Positions 38,340 to 62,263 of a stretch of DNA of 64,000 nt are shown one piece after another; the stretch's first letter is position 1; every line of letters begins with the position of its first letter. The DNA lies in NCBI GenBank assembly GCA_027493955.1, contig JAOSJT010000001.1:186001-250000 (forward strand), given 5' to 3'. Under the pieces are notes generated by a model. It saw only the letters and a program-made list of their open reading frames with translations. It ran no database searches and was not told the origin of the DNA. A program made the translations under genes and the position numbers. Source of the stretch: Bacteroidia bacterium (lineage in GTDB: Bacteria > Bacteroidota > Ignavibacteria > SZUA-365).

Positions 38340-39180
38340 GCGGAAGCGAAGAGGACATTTTTTCATCGCAAGGAGAAAGGGACAGCGCTTCGGGACGACG
38401 GACGTCAGACGGGGAGGGAAAGCTCTGTGCATTTGTCTGGATTTGGGTCCGTCTGGTGAGGGATGATGGTCCGAAAGGGAGGAGTGTGGTGGTTTGGGTG
38501 CTGGTTTTGAGGGCTGGGACCTGGTGTGGCGGGGGTGTTTCCGGGTCCTGGAGAGCAAGTGGGCGATACATGAATCGCCCAAATCCGATTCGGGCCTCCA
38601 TCAGATGGCGATACATGAATCGCCCACTTTCGGTTTCGGCCGTACCCTCGTGGCGATACATGAATCACCCAAATCCGATTCGGGCATCCATCAGATGGCG
38701 ATACATGAATCGCCCACTTTCGGTTTCGGCCGTACCCTCGTGGCGATACATGAATCACCCACTTTCGGATTCGGCCGTATCCGGGTGGCGATACATGAAT
38801 CGCCCGAATCGCCTCCGAGACGCTCTCGTATCGCGTACCATCGATCGCACGACCCCAATTTCACTCATTACTCCCCCCAATCCCGTCACTCCGCAAACTG
38901 AAGTATCCGGATTCCCGAATACGAATTGGCTACCTTTCATACAGGAGTACTCTCGGATTTACCTCCTGCGCCACCAAATGGGTATAATCCAGATTTTCGG
39001 AAACCGCTACTGTTCAAACGCCTCTGGGTACGTTTTTTGTGCGAGTCAACACGTCGATCTCCCGATTTCCTCTCGCGTCTTGAATTACATGTTCCGTGGG
39101 ACTATTTTGAAACAAATCAGCGAAGTCCCGTACAACTCCGGGTGTACCGGATCCGTCACGAAATTGAGGACGCAGCAATC
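38340..39180. other. Long non-coding stretch holding a REP-like array
   Basis: Several frames stay open across this region only because the repeat period is a multiple of three; none has a good start or protein-like composition. Apart from the array at 38562-38806 there is GC-rich sequence to its left and AT-richer sequence to its right leading to the gene at 39181. I see no other feature. Confidence 0.6.
38562..38806 (+). repeat. Six-unit array of REP-like palindromes, period 45 bp
   Basis: The palindrome GGCGATACATGAATCGCC (6-7 bp stem, ACATGA loop) starts at 38562, 38607, 38652, 38697, 38742 and 38787, always exactly 45 bases apart. In units 3 and 5 the right arm reads ATCACCC. The DNA between is of two types, one starting AAATCCGATTCGGGC and one starting ACTTTCGG(T/A)TTCGGC. 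They alternate A-B-A-B-B. The core is one base from GGGCGATTCATGAATCGCCC, a REP sequence I recall beside RAYT genes in other bacteria. The RAYT-like gene is just upstream. Confidence 0.88.
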
Positions 39181-49624: not shown

Positions 49625-49643
49625 GGGGAAGGTGAAAAGGTAA

Positions 49644-49769
49644 AGAGTGAAGAGTGAAGCGTGAAGCGTGAAGAGTGAAGAGTGAAGAGTGAAGAGTGAA
49701 GAGTGAAGAGTGAAGAATGAAGAGTGAAGAGTGAAAAGTGAAGAGTGAAGAGTGAAGAGTGAAGAGTGA
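49644..49769 (+). repeat. 18-copy heptanucleotide repeat (AGAGTGA)
   Basis: Eighteen head-to-tail seven-base units fill 126 bases without interruption. Fourteen read AGAGTGA; the variants are AGCGTGA (twice), AGAATGA and AAAGTGA. It begins about 20 bases after the second permease. The rest of 49625-49927 has no gene that I can support. Such arrays slip easily and are often strain-variable. Confidence 0.95.
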
Positions 49770-49927
49770 AGGTAAACCTCTCACCGGTCAGTATTGACAT
49801 GAGAACTCCCGCACAACGCTTGCGTGACATCCCGCTTCGGTTTACGATGAACGTTTTACGTTTATCGTGTTCCTCCTCCTTTCGCTTTTCGCCGAAACAA
49901 GACACACGAACGAATCCAGGAGCAATA

Positions 49928-52104: not shown

Positions 52105-52137
52105 AAAAAAAACGCCCCGGAAACCGGGGCGTTTTTT
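52105..52137. terminator. Bidirectional terminator, mainly for the rhodanese gene
   Basis: A nine-base stem (ACGCCCCGG/CCGGGGCGT) with an AAA loop is flanked by a run of A on the left and of T on the right, so it works on both strands. It is 20 bases beyond the stop of the minus-strand rhodanese gene. Confidence 0.93.
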
Positions 52138-52156: not shown

Positions 52157-53173
52157 TTACTTCACGTAATCGAAGTTCTTGCAGTCGACGGCGTTCTGAT
52201 ACACTGTTTTACCGGCGGTTTTCATTTTGTCGGCGATCATGCCCTGTGTCCCGAAGGCGAGACTCTTGGCGTCGTAACCCATCACGCGAAGGATGGCGGC
52301 GACGTTGGCGCTGGTCTGGCCGGTGTAGCAATACACAACGATGGTCTTGTCGGTCGGCAGGGTCTTCAGATTGCTCGCGAGCTTCAGGTCGGCCTTCGGA
52401 GTATACTGAAGGGAACCGGGGATGTGACCGATACCAGTGTAATCAGTGACGGACCAGTAATTGATGATGTAGTACTGGCTCAGGTTCGTGAACACTGTTG
52501 CGGCATCGATGGCGGATTTGGAATAGCCCTCGGCGTGAATAGCGGCGATACGATCCTTGAGGATCTCGGCACCGGTGGCTTTCCCGGTGTTGACTGTGGG
52601 GAGATTACCCGCGGCGGGCTTGGCCGGAGATGCCGTCGTGACGAACTGGCTTTCCTTGTCGCTGTTCAGTTTGGAGGTGATGTTATCGAAATCGCTGTGC
52701 CACGACGACATGCCGAATTTCATCGAGAAGGCCTTGGTGTAGCCGGACATGCGGAGGATGGCGGTGGTCCACGCGGCGCTCTGGCCGGTGTAGCAGATCA
52801 CGGCGATCTTGTCGTAATTGGCCATGTTGACGCCGGCCATGTGCGTCAGCACATTTGCGATCGGGACGTTGACTGCCCCGGCAATGTGACCTTTTGCATA
52901 GTCGGCGGCCGCGCGGATATCAAGGATGTACCACTTCTTCGCACCATTGACGTCTTCGTACACTTCCTGAGCGGAGACAATGGCCGGAGCGGCGGTATTC
53001 ATGTAATCACCGTTTGCGCCTTCGAGTTCGGCTACCAGCAGGGCGGCTTCGTCGACGGACGGAATGATGGGATCGTCGTCGTCATCCGAGCAGGCATTGG
53101 TGAATACGAGGAGAGGCAGGGCGACCAGTACGGTCACCGCGTAGCGACGGAGAAAAAGAGCGAGGTGCGACAT
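52157..53173 (-). CDS. Double-rhodanese lipoprotein
   Basis: 338 residues with an N-terminal hydrophobic segment and a probable lipidation cysteine at 28, followed by five aspartates (CSDDDDD). Two rhodanese domains follow. The first has YILDIRAAADYAKGHIAGAV and active-site ICYTGQSAA; the second has HIPGSLQYTP and YCYTGQTSA. Both catalytic cysteines are present. Rhodaneses transfer sulphur, but secreted lipoprotein forms occur in extracellular-electron-transfer gene clusters (for example ExtA and ExtH of Geobacter) next to multihaem cytochromes, as here. It is expected to be lipid-anchored in the envelope. The upstream neighbour ends 37 bases away, on the same strand. Confidence 0.88.
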   Translation of the reverse strand: MSHLALFLRRYAVTVLVALPLLVFTNACSDDDDDPIIPSVDEAALLVAELEGANGDYMNTAAPAIVSAQEVYEDVNGAKKWYILDIRAAADYAKGHIAGAVNVPIANVLTHMAGVNMANYDKIAVICYTGQSAAWTTAILRMSGYTKAFSMKFGMSSWHSDFDNITSKLNSDKESQFVTTASPAKPAAGNLPTVNTGKATGAEILKDRIAAIHAEGYSKSAIDAATVFTNLSQYYIINYWSVTDYTGIGHIPGSLQYTPKADLKLASNLKTLPTDKTIVVYCYTGQTSANVAAILRVMGYDAKSLAFGTQGMIADKMKTAGKTVYQNAVDCKNFDYVK

Positions 53174-53210
53174 AGAGTATCCTTTCCGAAAAGGTTATGA
53201 GGGTGCTTTG

Positions 53211-54548
53211 TTATTTCCAGCTTGCGGGGAGTGCGCCGTCCACCACGACGGATGTATTGGCGTCCTTCTCCCACTGCTCTTTGAGATCAGCTTCGAAGAG
53301 GAACCATTCTTTGTTCTTGCCATCCTTGATATGGCATGCTTCGTAGCAGGCCTGTCCCTGCGCAACTTCGGTACGAGGGGTCCAACGCTTGATGTTGTGC
53401 GGTGTGGCCATGCGCCAGGTCGGATGGGAATTGAAATTGTTGAGGTTCGGCACTCCGTAATTGCTCCAGGTGTCCGGCGCGTGCGGTGCGTTGCGCAGTA
53501 CGACCCATTTGAAGCGTTTGGTGTTGGGAAGAGGATTCTTCCCGATTTTGAAGGCCATGTACGGACCGTTGCGGACGCCGGTATCCACGTGACAGCTGCC
53601 GCAGTTCTGATAATCCTGCGAATGGCAACCCTGGCAGGAGACGTTGTTCCAGTGCACGTTGTGGAAGGTGTTGGCGGTTGCCTTGTTGCCGTGACAGTGC
53701 TCGCACTTCGGCTGGTTCGACACGGAGTAGCGCTGCTCGAACTTTTGTCCCGTACCGTGCATCTCGTCGGCGGTGTGGCAGTTGGTGCACTGGCCGCCGG
53801 GCATCTTCAGATAATGCACGTCCGGACGCAACCCGAAGCCTTCGCCGAAGTAGGCGTGTGCCACACGGGCGGAATGGCAGGCGGTGCAGTTGAGGCGCAT
53901 GTCGGGCTTTTTCTGGAAGTCGTGCGAGGCCAGGAAACCGCCACCGGCCTGACGGGGACGCATGACGTGGCACTCGCCGCAGGAGGCGTGACACTTGCCG
54001 CAATTCTTGTCGTAGCCCTTCTTGAGCTGTTCGGGGTAGTTTTCATAGCTGGGCAGGCCGGCGCGATCGGCGACCATGCGTTTTTGACCGAAGCCCTGCG
54101 TGTGGAGGCTGTTTTTATCCCGCGCGGCGATGGAGGGATGGCAGCTACCGCAGTATTTGTCGGCATCGTGCGAGGGACTCGCAACGAAATCCGTTGCATG
54201 CGCTTCGATTTTGTCCTTGGCGGGTTCCTTTCCTCCATGGCAGCTCACACAGGAGAGCTTGCCGTGGGCGGAATTCAGAAACTTCGCGCCGTTCTCTCCG
54301 CCGACGTACACCTTGGCCCAGGCTTCCATTTCCGGCAGAGTGCCGCCGCAGCCGCCTTCGCCTGGTCCGGCTGGGGGATTGGGATCGGCGACTTTCTTGA
54401 GCGTCGCTTCGTCACTGTGGCATCCTACGCAGGTTGTGATGTCGGCCGTCGGCTGAAGCGTGTTCGGCGGGATGGTCTCTTCGTCGTCGCAGGCCGAAAA
54501 CACGAGTATCGGCGCGAGGACGAGCAGGAGTTGTGCGAATCGTTTCAT
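53211..54548 (-). CDS. Multihaem cytochrome c lipoprotein
   Basis: 445 residues from the start at 54548, chosen because it opens a lipoprotein signal (QLLLVLAPILVFSAC, Cys20); a longer in-frame start would bury it. I count ten CxxCH haem sites (CVGCH, CVSCH, CGSCH, CGKCH, CGECH, CTACH, CTNCH, CEHCH, CQGCH, CGSCH) and one CYEACH, a CX3CH variant, near the end. CGKCH and CGECH sit together in one cluster. Such a protein would carry electrons at the outer membrane or in the periplasm. It pairs with the rhodanese lipoprotein downstream. Confidence 0.92.
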   Translation of the reverse strand: MKRFAQLLLVLAPILVFSACDDEETIPPNTLQPTADITTCVGCHSDEATLKKVADPNPPAGPGEGGCGGTLPEMEAWAKVYVGGENGAKFLNSAHGKLSCVSCHGGKEPAKDKIEAHATDFVASPSHDADKYCGSCHPSIAARDKNSLHTQGFGQKRMVADRAGLPSYENYPEQLKKGYDKNCGKCHASCGECHVMRPRQAGGGFLASHDFQKKPDMRLNCTACHSARVAHAYFGEGFGLRPDVHYLKMPGGQCTNCHTADEMHGTGQKFEQRYSVSNQPKCEHCHGNKATANTFHNVHWNNVSCQGCHSQDYQNCGSCHVDTGVRNGPYMAFKIGKNPLPNTKRFKWVVLRNAPHAPDTWSNYGVPNLNNFNSHPTWRMATPHNIKRWTPRTEVAQGQACYEACHIKDGKNKEWFLFEADLKEQWEKDANTSVVVDGALPASWK

Positions 54549-56382: not shown

Positions 56383-56662
56383 GGCCGTCTCAGCCCCTGC
56401 GGAAGCGACGCGCCTATAGTTCCCGACCCCCAGCCCTGAGTGCGGCGTCAGCCCCGGCTCCCAATTCTTCATCACTATCCCACGCACTCCGGCGTCGGTG
56501 TCCCGTACGTGGTCGTTCGAGGTTCAGCCGAAGAAAAACGGGTTCATCGGAGAAAAAAGCTTGATTTTTTAAGAATATTTCGATATATACAGACGATAAA
56601 AGCCTACTCGGCAATTGTTGCCTGCCCTGCCGACGTCTGACCATACCATCATCGGAGCCGCC

Positions 56663-59600
56663 ATGAAGCCTGTAACAGTACTATCTGTGTTGTTCGGTTT
56701 TCTATTCATCTTTCTCAAAGGGCCGGACGTCACAGCCCAGGGCGTGATCATTCCAACGGACGAGCAGCAAACAGACATGCTCCGGGCGTACAGATTCGTC
56801 CTGACCCAGGCCTCGGCCGATTATCGTTTCACCAATACCACGATGGATACGCTGCTCTTCCCGCGCTGGGGCGAGTACTCGATCTACTGGGCCGCATCGG
56901 GACAAAACAGGGGCAGCTTCGTCTTTCCCGATGTGCTTCCTTCCGCGTATTCGACGGTGCAGGCAACCCGCTACACCGGGTACGATTTTGCGCAAGCCGA
57001 CCACTACGCGCTGACGTTCAAAGCCTACGCGAAGACGATCGCCATTTTCAAAAGCGCTTTGCAACGGAACAACGGAAGTGTGTCGTGGGAGGCGGTATAC
57101 TTCCAGAATCTCGTCGAGTCGCATTTGCTCGGTGGCGTCTCCTATCCCATCAACGAAAGAGAGATCGACTCGGCGGGCATCATCTGGACGACGCAGGTGC
57201 TGGTAATTCCGGCCTTCGCCATGCATGGCGGTGACTGGAAATTCTATGTGGACAGCATGTTCACCGCGGCTCCGCGGCTTCGCGAAAGGCTGCTTACCTT
57301 CCTGTCGCGCGGAGGAACGATATACACCGAGGGCAACGCCGTCTACGTGATAGAAAAACTGGGTCTGCTGTCCGATGGGGCGGTGGACTACACGGACGCC
57401 GTGCAGCCTGATACAACAAACAGCAGCATACTTCTCGATATCGCCGCATCCAACCATCCGGTCGCTTTTGCGCATGCGGCGGCGGGAAATCGCATTTACT
57501 CCGGCAGCATACCGAGGGTGCACTGCGGCGGAGCGGAAGTCCTCGCCAGGGCACAGGGTACGAGTACGCCTGTGATTTTCGTCCTGCAGGGTCCGAAGGC
57601 GAACAACGGACGGGTGATCTGCAATACCGCGCTTCCGACGGTCGGCGGCTCGAATGCCATACAGCCCGGGGAGACTTCGCACGAGAGCCGGCAGCTACAA
57701 TGGGCGATCAATGCCATCCTCTCGGCATTCGCCACGCGCATAGACGTCACGCGCTCGATTGACAACGCTATCCCGGATTCCATTACGGCCGGGCGCAATG
57801 CGGCCTCGTTCGACCGCTGCGACACTCTCGAGGTGCGGGTACGTCTGCGCAACCTCTCTTCTTCGCCCGTCAGTGGCATCGAAGTGCAGGAAGCGCTGCG
57901 GGATTTCTTCACGTTTGTGGACGTCGTGACGCCCGATGTGACGGCAGAGTACAGCAAACCGAATCTGACGTTTCGCGGGATTTCCCTGCAGCCGCACGAG
58001 GAAAAGGTAATCGTCTATCGTATCGCCACGCCGGCGCCCTCCGATCCCGTCCACGAAAAGGTAAACAGTTACATTTCCTGGGCTTCCTATATCTACGCGT
58101 CCTACGCCACCATTTCGTACACGGACGTTGACGGCGCCGCATCCTATCGCAAGTACAGGAATTACGTGGACCTGCTGTTCTCCGCGCGTATTGTAGCGGA
58201 TACCGATCTGAATTGGAAGAATTTCCTGGGACTGTACTATCAGCCGTTCAAAGTGTTCATGCTGATGGAGAACAAGGAGCGCACGGCGGCCAGGAGCACG
58301 AAATATGTGCAGTATATCCCCAAAGACGTTCCGTTTTACTGGACCGACACCGGGCTCGATATTCCCATTCTGAAAACTCCGGGCGGTAAATACGTGGACG
58401 TGCTCCGCGGCAGCAACAGCGACAGCTCTCCCGAGTTCGACATGGACAGCGACGGGCATCCCGACGTCTGGCTCGATACCGCGTCCATCAGCCCGAAAAA
58501 CTACCGCCTCGAAGAAACGGAAGTGTACTGGATCAATCCGTGGGAGCATCTGCGGAGCGGCAACACCGCATTGTACGAAGACATAGATCATGACGGACTG
58601 CGCGCGCAGGATGTGGACGGCGATGGAATCGTGGACATCGAAGAGCCAGGTGATAAAATCCGCGTCTGGAAAGTGACCTGGGATATCGGCACCATGGCCG
58701 GGTATCAGTTCTTCGATCCCTATTGTTACTTCGAAATCTGGGTCGATCCGCCGGATCTCGTTCCCATGTCCGCAGGTGTAGCGAGCGCGCTCGGGCGGCT
58801 TGATGGCGGCGTCGAAAATATGTTCTATCCCTACTCTCCCGATGTGCACGCGCCGAATCTCAGGGACACCTGCTGGACACATTGGATGGAGCGTGACGAA
58901 AAGGGGGACGTGGTGTGGAAGCAGCTCATCTTCCAGCAGATCGGGAACTATGAAGGATTCACCTTCATCGACACGCTGAAATCGGGCTACAAGCTGAAGG
59001 CGACGGACCGCTGCGCCGGCACCGTACCGCAGCCGCACAGGGAATTCATCGCCGTACTCTCCCTCGGTGGCGAGGAAATCGACATGAATAATTTCACACC
59101 CTCGAAATCGCAGTACTCCAACATCGAGTATGAAACGATATTCGGCGAGCAGCGAAACACGCCAATCCGCACCACATACACGTACTATGCGCCGCTGCCG
59201 AACCCGCTGCAGTTCGAATATCTAACCAACAATTTTACCATTACCAGTCCGAAGGACGGATCGCTGCTGCGAGAGCTCCCGGCCTATGGTAAAGCGAATC
59301 TCACCTTCGACATCGATGCGTCTACGGAGTACTCCTACTACTGGATACGCAACGCCGGACATGACGTCGATTTCAACGATCCGTCCGAGGCTCTTGACAG
59401 CGTCGAAGCGTTGGGCGATGGAGTGTTTGGTTACATGCTGTACGACATCCCGAAGGGTATGGGCGGTTACAAGATCACACTCCCGAAAAAATCCGACGGA
59501 AGCTACGACATCGACAGAATCCTGAAGGTCGACGGGAAGCCGTATCAATCGTGGTTGTCCAACGCGCACACCAGCGACTCGGTGCGGATATTCGAGGACC

Positions 59601-62263
59601 AGTTTACCTACCACCTTCATATCCCGCAACTGCTGATTCCGCCGGCTCTCGACGACGACAACTACGACGGCGTAGACGACTGGATAGACGACCGCGGTGA
59701 CCGCTTCCAATCCTCGACGGGCTTTTTGCACGACGGCTTCATGAAAGGAAACGGAGAATTGTATCCGGAATATCCGCCCACACCCTTCAGGGACGATATC
59801 TACGGTTGGGTGACGTCGGGCTGGTATCCGGGCGCGGACAACACCTACGGCGACGATTTTTTCGAGACGCTGGGTAAGACGCATTTCACCATCAGTGCGC
59901 AGTACGAGGGCCTGGGGAGGGAGGGCTCTGTTGACATCAGCAAGGGCGGCTGGCTCGTCGTGGAGGAAATCTTCGGCGGCTCACCCTGGGTGCTGTTCTC
60001 GCATGCACTCAGCGCCTATGCCGAGGGCGTCAATTACACGCTCACGTCCGCCGTTAATCCTTCCGTTGCGCGCTTCGGTGTGGACACCGTGTACGTCAGG
60101 CATGTGATCGAGGACAAAGGTGAGCCGCATTCCTTCGACGCGAATTTCGATCCCTTCCAGGTTTCCTACGGCTACGGACAAACGACGATCAGCACGTACT
60201 CGGGCGGCAAGGATCCCTGCGGTCTGATCGAGCCGTCGCCGAATCTCTCGACCATCATCGATCCCGGTCGCGACACGCGGCAGCTCACACTCGTTCCAAA
60301 CGCCGATCCGGCGAATCCGGATCTCGCAGACTACCCGAAGCAGGTGAACGGCACCTTTCTCTCCGTGCGCATCGAGGTGTCCAATGGTACGGACTACAAC
60401 TGGATCGGGACGAACATCACGCCGCACATCCCTGCGAAAAGCGGCAGCACCCGTCTCGTTATGAGTTATGTGTCATATCCACGGCCGCTGGTGCCCGCGC
60501 AGGTGGATCCCGCCACCGGAACTGTGATCCGGGGGGGTGATGATCCTCGTGCGTTCCGGGCCGGCTGGCGATTCAATCAGCCGGAGGGAGAAGTGCTCGT
60601 GAAAATGGGAAACGAACTGCCCCTCCTGCAGCCGTCGCGGCGCGCGTATTTCGTGTTCCTGTTCGAAGTGGATGCCTCCCTGGATGATGGCGTGTACGGC
60701 ATTGATTTTACGATGAAAGGCGAGATGCGGCATTACGACGGCAGCCCGGCAGGGTCGGCGGCGTTTGACGTGCCGTCGTCCATGTTCAGCATTGCTCCGC
60801 GCGATGCGCGTGGCAATGTGCGCGAGTACCAGAAGCTCGTCATAGGACAGGGCGCCCTCGGCGACATCGGCACGACCATGCTCTCGCCGCAATTTCGCGG
60901 ACTGGAGAATGTGCGCTGGTCCACGAAGGATGTGCAGGCAACGGACTTCGACACGCTCACCGCGACGCTCCCGGCAACATACCTTCCTGCCTCCGGCGTG
61001 GAAACCATCGATCTCTCGCGCTTTACCGCGTTTCCCACGGTTGATGCCACGAAGCTTTACGTGCTCGAAGAGGCCGAAGTGCGCAGCGGCACATCCATCG
61101 AAACGCTCAACATCACAAGCGGTGAAGCGCTGCATTATTCCTACGATCCTTTCGGCAGCTATACCGCCACCAGCAAGGCCTTGACCCTTTCCACCGTCGG
61201 TCCCAAGGTCGTGATCGGGAAAACGGTGTCCGATATCAACGGACGGCGGTACAGCGAGAAGTGCATTCCGGAATTCCTGCCCGGCGAAGAAAAGGTAATA
61301 AATGTCCTATATACGGTCACCAATCAAGGTTCGACGATGGCGGAGAACGTGGCGTTGCGCTGCGATTCCGGACCGCTGTTCGAAGCGGATCCCGACCACC
61401 TGCCCGCGGGCTGCAGAAGCGTGAGCGGCGGCATCGAGATCGGGTGTTCCTCGCTGATTCCCGGCGAAACCCGCGAGATCCTGCTGCGCTACCGCGCGAC
61501 GGAGCGCGCTTGCGCCACAGTGTACGATTCCATCGCGCTTGTGCGCGGCATGACCGCCACCTACGACGGCAAATACGTGTTGTCCGGCACGGTCAGGAAG
61601 GAAGTGTTCACCGTGCCCGATGCCGCTGTGCTCGATCTCCCGGCCTATGATTTCCGGGCGGACCGCCTTGTGTGTTCGCAACTGGACGCTGCGCCGGGCG
61701 AGCACGTGTCGCTGTATGTCAAAGTCGTCAACGGCGCACTTGCCGCAAAGGATGTAACGGTCGGATTTTACGCCGTGGTCAACAATGCGGACACTGTGTT
61801 GCTCGCTTCACGACCGCTCGACGCGATAGCGGGACAGACGTATCAGATCGTCTCTTCTGGCGTGACCATACCGGATTCCGCGATATGCATCGAGGTGTTT
61901 GCCCGCGTGGATGACGCGGACGGATTTGGCGAATTTTGCGAGGGCAACAACATCACATCGCTCAAGCTCCCTTTGCGCGGTCTGGACTGGATACTCGAGG
62001 TCGGCAATTTCCCGAATCCGATGCGCGGCGAGACTGTGATCTCCTATGTGCTTCCCCGCGAAGTACGCGAGCTCACGCTTTCACTGTACGCCCTGGACGG
62101 CAGGGAAGTCGGCAGGATAGAGCATCCCCCATCGGAAATTGGAAGACATAATATTCCCTGGCAGGAGGCGCAGCTTTCCGCCGGCACCTACCTGTACACC
62201 TTCAGGGGCATCGACGACCGCGGCGAACTGAAAACATTTACCGGACGCCTCGTCAAACTCTGA
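56663..62263 (+). CDS. Giant (1866 aa) T9SS-sorted surface protein with CARDB-like domain
   Basis: The start at ATG 56663 (CGGAG before it) opens a signal peptide (PVTVLSVLFGFLFIFLKGPD); an in-frame start at 56615 would bury it. Residues ~25-900 match no family I know. Calcium-loop-like Asp-rich stretches occur at ~593 (DMDSDGHPDVWLD), ~648 (DIDHDGLRAQDVDGDGIVDI) and ~1000 (LDDDNYDGVDDWIDD). A DUF11-like segment (YTVTNQGSTMAENVALRCDS) and a CARDB-like segment (GEHVSLYVKVVNGALAAKDV) follow at ~1550-1770. The last ~85 residues (NFPNPMRGETVISYVLPREV, LYALDGREVGRIEHP) form a sorting domain. It is probably a calcium-stabilised surface protein. Confidence 0.85.
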   Translation: MKPVTVLSVLFGFLFIFLKGPDVTAQGVIIPTDEQQTDMLRAYRFVLTQASADYRFTNTTMDTLLFPRWGEYSIYWAASGQNRGSFVFPDVLPSAYSTVQATRYTGYDFAQADHYALTFKAYAKTIAIFKSALQRNNGSVSWEAVYFQNLVESHLLGGVSYPINEREIDSAGIIWTTQVLVIPAFAMHGGDWKFYVDSMFTAAPRLRERLLTFLSRGGTIYTEGNAVYVIEKLGLLSDGAVDYTDAVQPDTTNSSILLDIAASNHPVAFAHAAAGNRIYSGSIPRVHCGGAEVLARAQGTSTPVIFVLQGPKANNGRVICNTALPTVGGSNAIQPGETSHESRQLQWAINAILSAFATRIDVTRSIDNAIPDSITAGRNAASFDRCDTLEVRVRLRNLSSSPVSGIEVQEALRDFFTFVDVVTPDVTAEYSKPNLTFRGISLQPHEEKVIVYRIATPAPSDPVHEKVNSYISWASYIYASYATISYTDVDGAASYRKYRNYVDLLFSARIVADTDLNWKNFLGLYYQPFKVFMLMENKERTAARSTKYVQYIPKDVPFYWTDTGLDIPILKTPGGKYVDVLRGSNSDSSPEFDMDSDGHPDVWLDTASISPKNYRLEETEVYWINPWEHLRSGNTALYEDIDHDGLRAQDVDGDGIVDIEEPGDKIRVWKVTWDIGTMAGYQFFDPYCYFEIWVDPPDLVPMSAGVASALGRLDGGVENMFYPYSPDVHAPNLRDTCWTHWMERDEKGDVVWKQLIFQQIGNYEGFTFIDTLKSGYKLKATDRCAGTVPQPHREFIAVLSLGGEEIDMNNFTPSKSQYSNIEYETIFGEQRNTPIRTTYTYYAPLPNPLQFEYLTNNFTITSPKDGSLLRELPAYGKANLTFDIDASTEYSYYWIRNAGHDVDFNDPSEALDSVEALGDGVFGYMLYDIPKGMGGYKITLPKKSDGSYDIDRILKVDGKPYQSWLSNAHTSDSVRIFEDQFTYHLHIPQLLIPPALDDDNYDGVDDWIDDRGDRFQSSTGFLHDGFMKGNGELYPEYPPTPFRDDIYGWVTSGWYPGADNTYGDDFFETLGKTHFTISAQYEGLGREGSVDISKGGWLVVEEIFGGSPWVLFSHALSAYAEGVNYTLTSAVNPSVARFGVDTVYVRHVIEDKGEPHSFDANFDPFQVSYGYGQTTISTYSGGKDPCGLIEPSPNLSTIIDPGRDTRQLTLVPNADPANPDLADYPKQVNGTFLSVRIEVSNGTDYNWIGTNITPHIPAKSGSTRLVMSYVSYPRPLVPAQVDPATGTVIRGGDDPRAFRAGWRFNQPEGEVLVKMGNELPLLQPSRRAYFVFLFEVDASLDDGVYGIDFTMKGEMRHYDGSPAGSAAFDVPSSMFSIAPRDARGNVREYQKLVIGQGALGDIGTTMLSPQFRGLENVRWSTKDVQATDFDTLTATLPATYLPASGVETIDLSRFTAFPTVDATKLYVLEEAEVRSGTSIETLNITSGEALHYSYDPFGSYTATSKALTLSTVGPKVVIGKTVSDINGRRYSEKCIPEFLPGEEKVINVLYTVTNQGSTMAENVALRCDSGPLFEADPDHLPAGCRSVSGGIEIGCSSLIPGETREILLRYRATERACATVYDSIALVRGMTATYDGKYVLSGTVRKEVFTVPDAAVLDLPAYDFRADRLVCSQLDAAPGEHVSLYVKVVNGALAAKDVTVGFYAVVNNADTVLLASRPLDAIAGQTYQIVSSGVTIPDSAICIEVFARVDDADGFGEFCEGNNITSLKLPLRGLDWILEVGNFPNPMRGETVISYVLPREVRELTLSLYALDGREVGRIEHPPSEIGRHNIPWQEAQLSAGTYLYTFRGIDDRGELKTFTGRLVKL

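Follow-up and report, generated by a model that had tools for sequence, protein, structure and literature searches.

Rhodanese-like proteins occur beside extracellular electron conduits, a puzzle for which no reason is known, and the locus described here raises the same question: what does a rhodanese do next to a multihaem cytochrome? The locus lies in a window of 64,000 nucleotides from a Bacteroidota genome of the class Ignavibacteria (assembly GCA_027493955.1, contig JAOSJT010000001.1, positions 186,001 to 250,000; G000:C1:186001-250000 in our numbering), whose sequence is a single contig of 5.24 Mb. On the minus strand, a gene for a multihaem c-type cytochrome lipoprotein is followed 37 nt downstream by a gene for a tandem rhodanese lipoprotein, and the two products almost certainly form a functional unit. 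That this unit joins a tandem-rhodanese carrier of sulfane sulfur to an 11-haem cytochrome with a catalytic residue at Cys67, replaced by selenocysteine (Sec) in relatives, is a proposal that we regard as evenly balanced. The Cys/Sec site, the constant pairing of the genes and a natural fusion of the two proteins nevertheless give the puzzle a testable answer, in which a thiol or selenol wired to haems would receive sulfur or selenium.

The pairing was followed in 391 genomes of the class, using a profile of 15 cytochrome sequences at E 1e-40. The cytochrome is present in 75 genomes, with a single match in each, and in all 75, which are related rather than independent and are drawn from ten families, the rhodanese gene is the next one downstream, on the same strand (counting L046, where the end of the contig truncates it). 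Conservation of the gene pair in related genomes, which the first-pass annotation had named as a check of its proposal, is thereby borne out. Identity to the window cytochrome is 45-78% among the 13 class orthologues first aligned, and a sample of 395 genomes from the whole phylum gave matches at E 1e-25 in 27, none of them outside the window's class. The same annotation had placed two lipoprotein genes in one operon; both lipoboxes are present, and the common strand, the spacing, the conservation and a terminator-like hairpin behind the rhodanese gene suggest an operon, although the two terminator-like sites found in the region, against a shuffle mean of 3.8, are not a significant number. A second rhodanese gene stands downstream of the first in L122 and L142. 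A MarR-type regulator (PF01047) adjoins the pair at L044:12031-12486 and L104:8663-9118, and visual inspection suggests one in L048 and L105 as well.

The window cytochrome matches both Cytochrome_C7 and Cytochrom_c3_2 (PF14522, PF14537) above the Pfam cut-offs, and these matches together with its many CxxCH motifs place it among the multihaem c-type (c3/c7) cytochromes. The initial count of ten CxxCH motifs and one CX3CH motif holds, and it is common to 74 of 76 aligned homologues, an alignment that takes in an Anaerolineaceae homologue (L030); the two rows that depart from it are one truncated by a contig end and L030, which is split by a TGA codon. The CX3CH motif is kept in 75 of the 76 rows, with CDSCH in L030, and 13 TGA-containing homologues from Chloroflexota have Cys at the CX3CH columns in the form of CxxCH, none of them showing CX3CH. 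Because these homologues have CxxCH there, the CX3CH motif is a genuine haem site, and the window cytochrome is an 11-haem protein. Its lipobox cysteine, Cys20, is Cys in 73 of 76 rows, the other three being gaps. Searched by profile against the PDB, the cytochrome had no match better than E 0.001, and its matches, all weak, were to other multihaem cytochromes; tblastn against plasmids gave no match. A DNA pattern for haem sites returned 468 matches in the window's own genome versus 429 in the control, too close to the control rate for counting, and a pattern of paired haems was too strict to inform on the three genomes of family f21 to which it was applied.

Apart from the lipid-bearing cysteine and the 22 haem cysteines, the window cytochrome has one cysteine only, Cys67, placed after haem site 1 and before haem site 2 of the sequence. 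In the alignment, 74 of 74 rows with a residue there have Cys, and the other two have gaps. In L030, which belongs to genome G688, the gene is split at this site by a TGA codon, and reads GEG-TGA-GGSVPPLEGWEKV where the window protein reads GEGGCGGTLPEMEAWAKV. A search of 400 Chloroflexota genomes at E 1e-30 found matches in 13 genomes. Of these, 12 together contain 13 strong loci, and every one of the 13 loci has exactly one in-frame TGA. This TGA falls, in 13 of 13, on the column of Cys67, and the matched domain contains no other, the window gene being the Cys (TGC) homologue of these forms. The two other Chloroflexota matches contain no in-frame TGA; one is a 21-haem paralogue in G688, with neither Cys nor TGA at the Cys67 position, and the other, in G707, is weak. 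Where one phylum always has Cys and another has TGA/Sec, the residue is usually catalytic, and since Cys67 follows this pattern it is very probably the catalytic residue of the cytochrome. The first-pass annotation included neither the invariant Cys67 nor the Chloroflexota TGA, and in their light the pair is more likely an enzyme than a wire.

The argument from exchange depends on how the TGA is read. In the TGA forms, with the TGA numbered 1-3, a hairpin with a GUU loop starts at position 14, and 5-7 of its 7 stem pairs form in 13 of 13 loci, with two pairs changed on both sides. When the stem is shifted by one to three columns, pairing falls from 94.5% to 35-48%, and the corresponding stretch makes 0-5 pairs in the 74 Cys forms. 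The bacterial selenocysteine insertion sequence (SECIS) is a stem-loop close behind the UGA with a G in a short apical loop, a description that the hairpin of the TGA forms fits. SelB is found above the cut-off in 13 of 13 Chloroflexota genomes (G707 and the 12 with a TGA form); none of the 13 Cys-form genomes sampled, the window's own among them, has it above the cut-off. The combination of a TGA at a conserved Cys column, a SECIS-like hairpin and SelB is that of a selenoprotein family and suggests that the Chloroflexota TGA is read as selenocysteine. Three observations temper this reading. The hairpin of L030 by itself is no stabler than shuffled sequences (z -0.56 to -1.19), and the case for a SECIS-like element therefore rests on conservation across the 13 loci. 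SelB is common in Chloroflexota, occurring at E 1e-60 in 253 of 321 genomes, so that its presence in all 13 is weak evidence alone. Finally, a scan of one SelB-bearing contig stretch of G688 revealed no tRNA gene.

The partner protein of the window belongs to the rhodanese superfamily, with a PF00581 match of 97.7 bits against a cut-off of 22.2, in two stretches, and with active-site cysteines. The two intact active sites recognized at first pass, at Cys127 and Cys282, are both Cys in 75 of 75 covering homologues, and the lipobox Cys28 is Cys in 75 of 76 rows. A structure model of the protein shows the expected alternation of helix and strand at a mean predicted local distance difference test (pLDDT) score of 53.9, too weak for interpretation, and a profile search found 6mxv and 1yt8 among 8 PDB sequences. 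In Chloroflexota, the rhodanese gene lies downstream of the TGA cytochrome in ten of the 13 loci and upstream in one (L167), is fused to it in one (L168) and is lacking in one (L173). The fusion (G699:C164) encodes two rhodanese stretches and then the cytochrome in one open reading frame, and, because a fused gene is strong evidence of this kind, it argues that the two proteins work together. Eight of the Chloroflexota partners are longer proteins of 570-579 residues, each with four active-site cysteines kept, and seven of these eight start with a clear lipoprotein signal; the one partner tested with Pfam has four rhodanese stretches. The rhodanese of L030 is no lipoprotein; its C-terminus has LPSTGG, then a hydrophobic stretch and finally KR, and looks like a sortase anchor.

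This conservation bears on the possibility that Cys67 is structural or a ligand of haem iron, with the rhodanese domains as scaffolds and the TGA read as Sec without catalytic need. Cysteine does ligate haem in some multihaem enzymes, as such a role would require, but we know of no Sec that serves as a standing haem ligand, and scaffolds would hardly keep both active-site cysteines throughout the class and all four in the eight four-domain proteins of Chloroflexota. This explanation is accordingly judged very improbable. Since the rhodanese adjoins the cytochrome or is fused to it, transfer of sulfane sulfur (or selenium) to Cys67/Sec is the natural reading. In L030, the TGA cytochrome is preceded (L030:917-5629) by the 21-haem paralogue, an HmcB-like iron-sulfur protein and an HmcC-like membrane protein, possibly a quinone-side module.

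According to the proposed mechanism, both lipoproteins would be held in the outer membrane, probably facing outwards. The rhodanese would take sulfane sulfur from polysulfide, S0 or thiosulfate, and possibly selenium, as a Cys-persulfide, and would then hand the sulfur to Cys67/Sec. The haem chain would reduce the persulfide with release of HS-, or the reaction would run in reverse and sulfide would be oxidized, while a porin-multihaem conduit would link the haems to the quinone pool, with electrons passing in either direction. The first of these steps draws on the residues that begin at the lipid cysteine, which are CDDEE in the cytochrome and CSDDDDD in the rhodanese. Acidic runs behind the lipid cysteine are a surface-export signal in Bacteroidota and may act as one in this class. 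Such a run, taken as two or more acidic residues out of five, occurs in 50 of 61 cytochromes and in 45 of 52 rhodaneses, versus 16 of 45 other lipoproteins of the same loci, in a comparison of related sequences that used a home-made lipobox filter by which 15 and 24 of 76 were dropped. These counts would fit an outward-facing position of both lipoproteins at the outer membrane.

For the last step, a conduit is needed. In 18 of 75 loci, a porin gene lies upstream of the pair on the same strand within the fetched stretches. In L044, L046, L047 and L048, a barrel-like protein of 423-438 residues and cytochromes of 12-14 and 5-10 haems precede the pair, and one cytochrome among the conduit neighbours of the 18 loci carries 28 haems. 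The window locus itself has no porin, and the conduit genes sit elsewhere in the genome, where the first-pass annotation had advised a look for porin or quinol partners: this porin, at 36% identity, is encoded at 1.197 Mb (G000:C1:1197562-1198818), adjoined by genes for an 11-haem and a 5-haem lipoprotein, and another locus encodes a protein that combines 13 haems and a cytochrome b561 domain. The same genome also encodes, at L032:6410-8314 (about 2.087 Mb), an 8-haem protein with a Cytochrome_cB domain (PF11783), possibly of the octahaem nitrite/tetrathionate reductase kind. Among the 391 genomes, 58 have the pair and the porin, 17 the pair only, 173 the porin only and 143 neither. All 58 pair-bearing genomes outside family f21 have the porin. 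Co-occurrence as such (odds ratio 2.8) was dropped as proof, being confounded by kinship, with the porin-less cases all in one family. The conduit is likely a partner of the pair, though not an obligate one.

Several observations weigh against a sulfur enzyme wired to the cell by a conduit. The 17 pair-bearing genomes with no porin match, all of family f21 (for example G220, G101 and G228), and the 173 porin-positive genomes with no cytochrome make the porin link loose, and in f21 another electron route would be needed if the pair is wired to the outside. To these may be added the filter and the kinship behind the acidic-run comparison, the absence of a rhodanese gene from the fetched 16 kb at L173, and a structure prediction of the cytochrome from 5 sequences that was unusable (mean pLDDT 34.6). 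The sulfur chemistry as proposed could equally well prove right or wrong.

A rival account would make the pair a plain component of a conduit, a surface wire or terminal metal reductase, with the rhodanese as an accessory that binds metal sulfide or acts as a structural cap, on the pattern of the Geobacter ext conduits. The 18 loci in which the pair follows a porin and multihaem cytochromes, the conduit elsewhere in the window's genome and the described effect of the ExtH-containing Geobacter cluster extHIJKL on Fe(III)/Mn(IV) reduction (PMC6148476, in part) are all in keeping with it. A wire, however, needs neither an invariant free cysteine nor an exchange of Cys for Sec, the f21 genomes have the pair with no porin, and the 21-haem paralogue of G688 has neither residue at the Cys67 position. 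A plain conduit role is therefore considered unlikely.

The reading as a sulfur enzyme may be extended across phyla, to a family of extracellular 11-haem surface enzymes for polysulfide/S0 redox chemistry, with Cys or Sec at the active site, fed by a rhodanese and wired by a conduit; this broader view is put forward tentatively, as somewhat less probable than not. On this view, Ignavibacteria-type bacteria and Chloroflexota, hitherto regarded mainly as possible metal reducers, would also have a sulfur-related role, and the Chloroflexota TGA members are probably annotated as truncated genes today.

The features of the locus are collected below.

Table 1. Features of the cytochrome-rhodanese locus, in window coordinates.
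Feature	Position	Strand	Basis
11-haem lipoprotein c-type cytochrome, 445 aa, ATG start	53211..54548	-	open reading frame, Pfam c7/c3
Cytochrome lipobox Cys20 codon, then DDEE	54489..54491	-	sequence
Haem site 1, CVGCH, ahead of Cys67	54417..54431	-	sequence, alignment
Non-haem Cys67 codon (TGC), GGCGG loop	54348..54350	-	alignment
Eleventh haem site, CX3CH (CYEACH)	53331..53348	-	alignment
Intergenic gap, 37 nt, AAAGGA-type ribosome site	53174..53210	-	sequence
Tandem rhodanese lipoprotein, 338 aa	52157..53173	-	open reading frame, PF00581 in two stretches
Rhodanese domain 1	52694..52972	-	Pfam best stretch 68-160
Active-site Cys127 codon, CYTGQS loop	52793..52795	-	sequence, alignment
Rhodanese domain 2	52250..52447	-	PF00581 match G000:C1:238250-238447, 42.7 bits
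Active-site Cys282 codon, CYTGQT loop	52328..52330	-	sequence, alignment
Intrinsic-terminator-like hairpin, 14 pairs, T tail, 3' of rhodanese gene	52107..52137	-	

Elsewhere in the window, a tandem array at 49643-49771 consists of 18 copies of the 7-bp unit AAGAGTG, and a repeat at 38562-38805 has a 90-bp (2 x 45) unit in 2.7 copies with 91% matches. A protein of 1882 residues (56615-62263) has no Pfam match at E 0.001; its C-terminus, judged by eye, resembles a secretion sorting domain.

Among known systems, the closest in outline is the Geobacter extHIJKL(MNOPQS) cluster, in which a rhodanese lipoprotein (ExtH), an outer-membrane porin (ExtI) and a TGA-split pentahaem cytochrome (ExtKL) are described (PMC6148476, in part). 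The likeness lies in the combination of a rhodanese lipoprotein, a Sec/Cys multihaem cytochrome and a porin, and in the LysR gene near some Chloroflexota loci, as beside extHIJKL in that description. One such LysR-type regulator lies upstream of a TGA locus on the opposite strand (L176:7274-8215), with others seen by eye in L172 and L175. Membership was rejected on both sides: the window rhodanese has no match to the NCBIfam model for ExtH (NF040901) even at E 10, and the ExtKL model (NF040886, identified as ExtKL in the relevant portion of PMC13188914) likewise has no match at E 10 to the window cytochrome or to P0002 and P0003, two of the TGA forms. The sole NCBIfam ext match of the window proteins is to ExtM, at 28 bits against a cut-off of 800. 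There are 11 haems here and 5 in ExtKL, and, in ExtKL as described, the TGA stands between the pentahaem part and a small downstream protein, whereas here Sec/Cys follows haem 1 of 11. The present genes form a two-gene unit in most genomes, in Ignavibacteria-type Bacteroidota and Chloroflexota, and the porin, part of the Geobacter cluster, is missing from the window locus and belongs to the cluster in only the 18 genomes noted above. Of the initial proposal, an electron-transfer or sulfur/selenium redox pair as in the Geobacter ext clusters, the sulfur/selenium half has become likelier, while membership of the ext family does not hold.

The same likeness raises the possibility of a reductase for selenite, tellurite or another oxyanion, similar to ExtKL/ExtH/ExtI, in which the rhodanese would carry the chalcogen, Cys/Sec would reduce it and the porin would admit the substrate. 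As far as the two papers describe them (PMC5877670, PMC6148476), the Geobacter proteins make up the same trio of rhodanese-like protein, proposed Sec-containing multihaem cytochrome and porin, and loss of extI impairs selenite/tellurite reduction (PMC5877670); the LysR gene is a further parallel. The lack of any ExtH or ExtKL model match and the different place of the TGA speak against this function, and the wide spread of the pair in the class would better fit a common substrate such as sulfur. An oxyanion reductase is thus also unlikely, and the sulfane-sulfur reading remains our preferred one.

Porin-cytochrome conduits of the Pcc/Mtr type have been published for Ignavibacteria (PMC4245776, PMC7399161), and the porin and further multihaem cytochromes that adjoin the pair in the 18 genomes resemble them. 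The pair differs in usually lying away from the porin, and the word rhodanese does not occur in the portions of these two papers that were available. The window's own genome holds such a conduit-like trio, of a porin and 11-haem and 5-haem lipoproteins with predicted locations, which may be the partner of the pair. In the open-access literature, no paper was found on rhodanese-paired multihaem cytochromes of Ignavibacteria or on a selenoprotein cytochrome with a rhodanese in Chloroflexi, and, by title and the start of the abstract, none on selenocysteine multihaem cytochromes concerns such a family. A functional parallel is offered by clusters 5-T/4 of Dethiobacter, where a multihaem cytochrome and rhodanese proteins are tied to sulfur reduction (PMC10376724, in part); compared by description, that cytochrome is of a different, SirA/MccA-like octahaem class. 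For Sec in a multihaem cytochrome, the octahaem tetrathionate-reductase-family selenoprotein TIGR04315 provides a precedent (PMC13188914), although this model has no match at E 10 to the window cytochrome, P0002 or P0003. ExtKL and that octahaem family are the only cytochrome entries in the part of this recent list that was available, from which the present apparent selenoprotein family is absent, and the Chloroflexota TGA forms thus represent a probable, as yet unlisted branch of selenoproteins beside these two.

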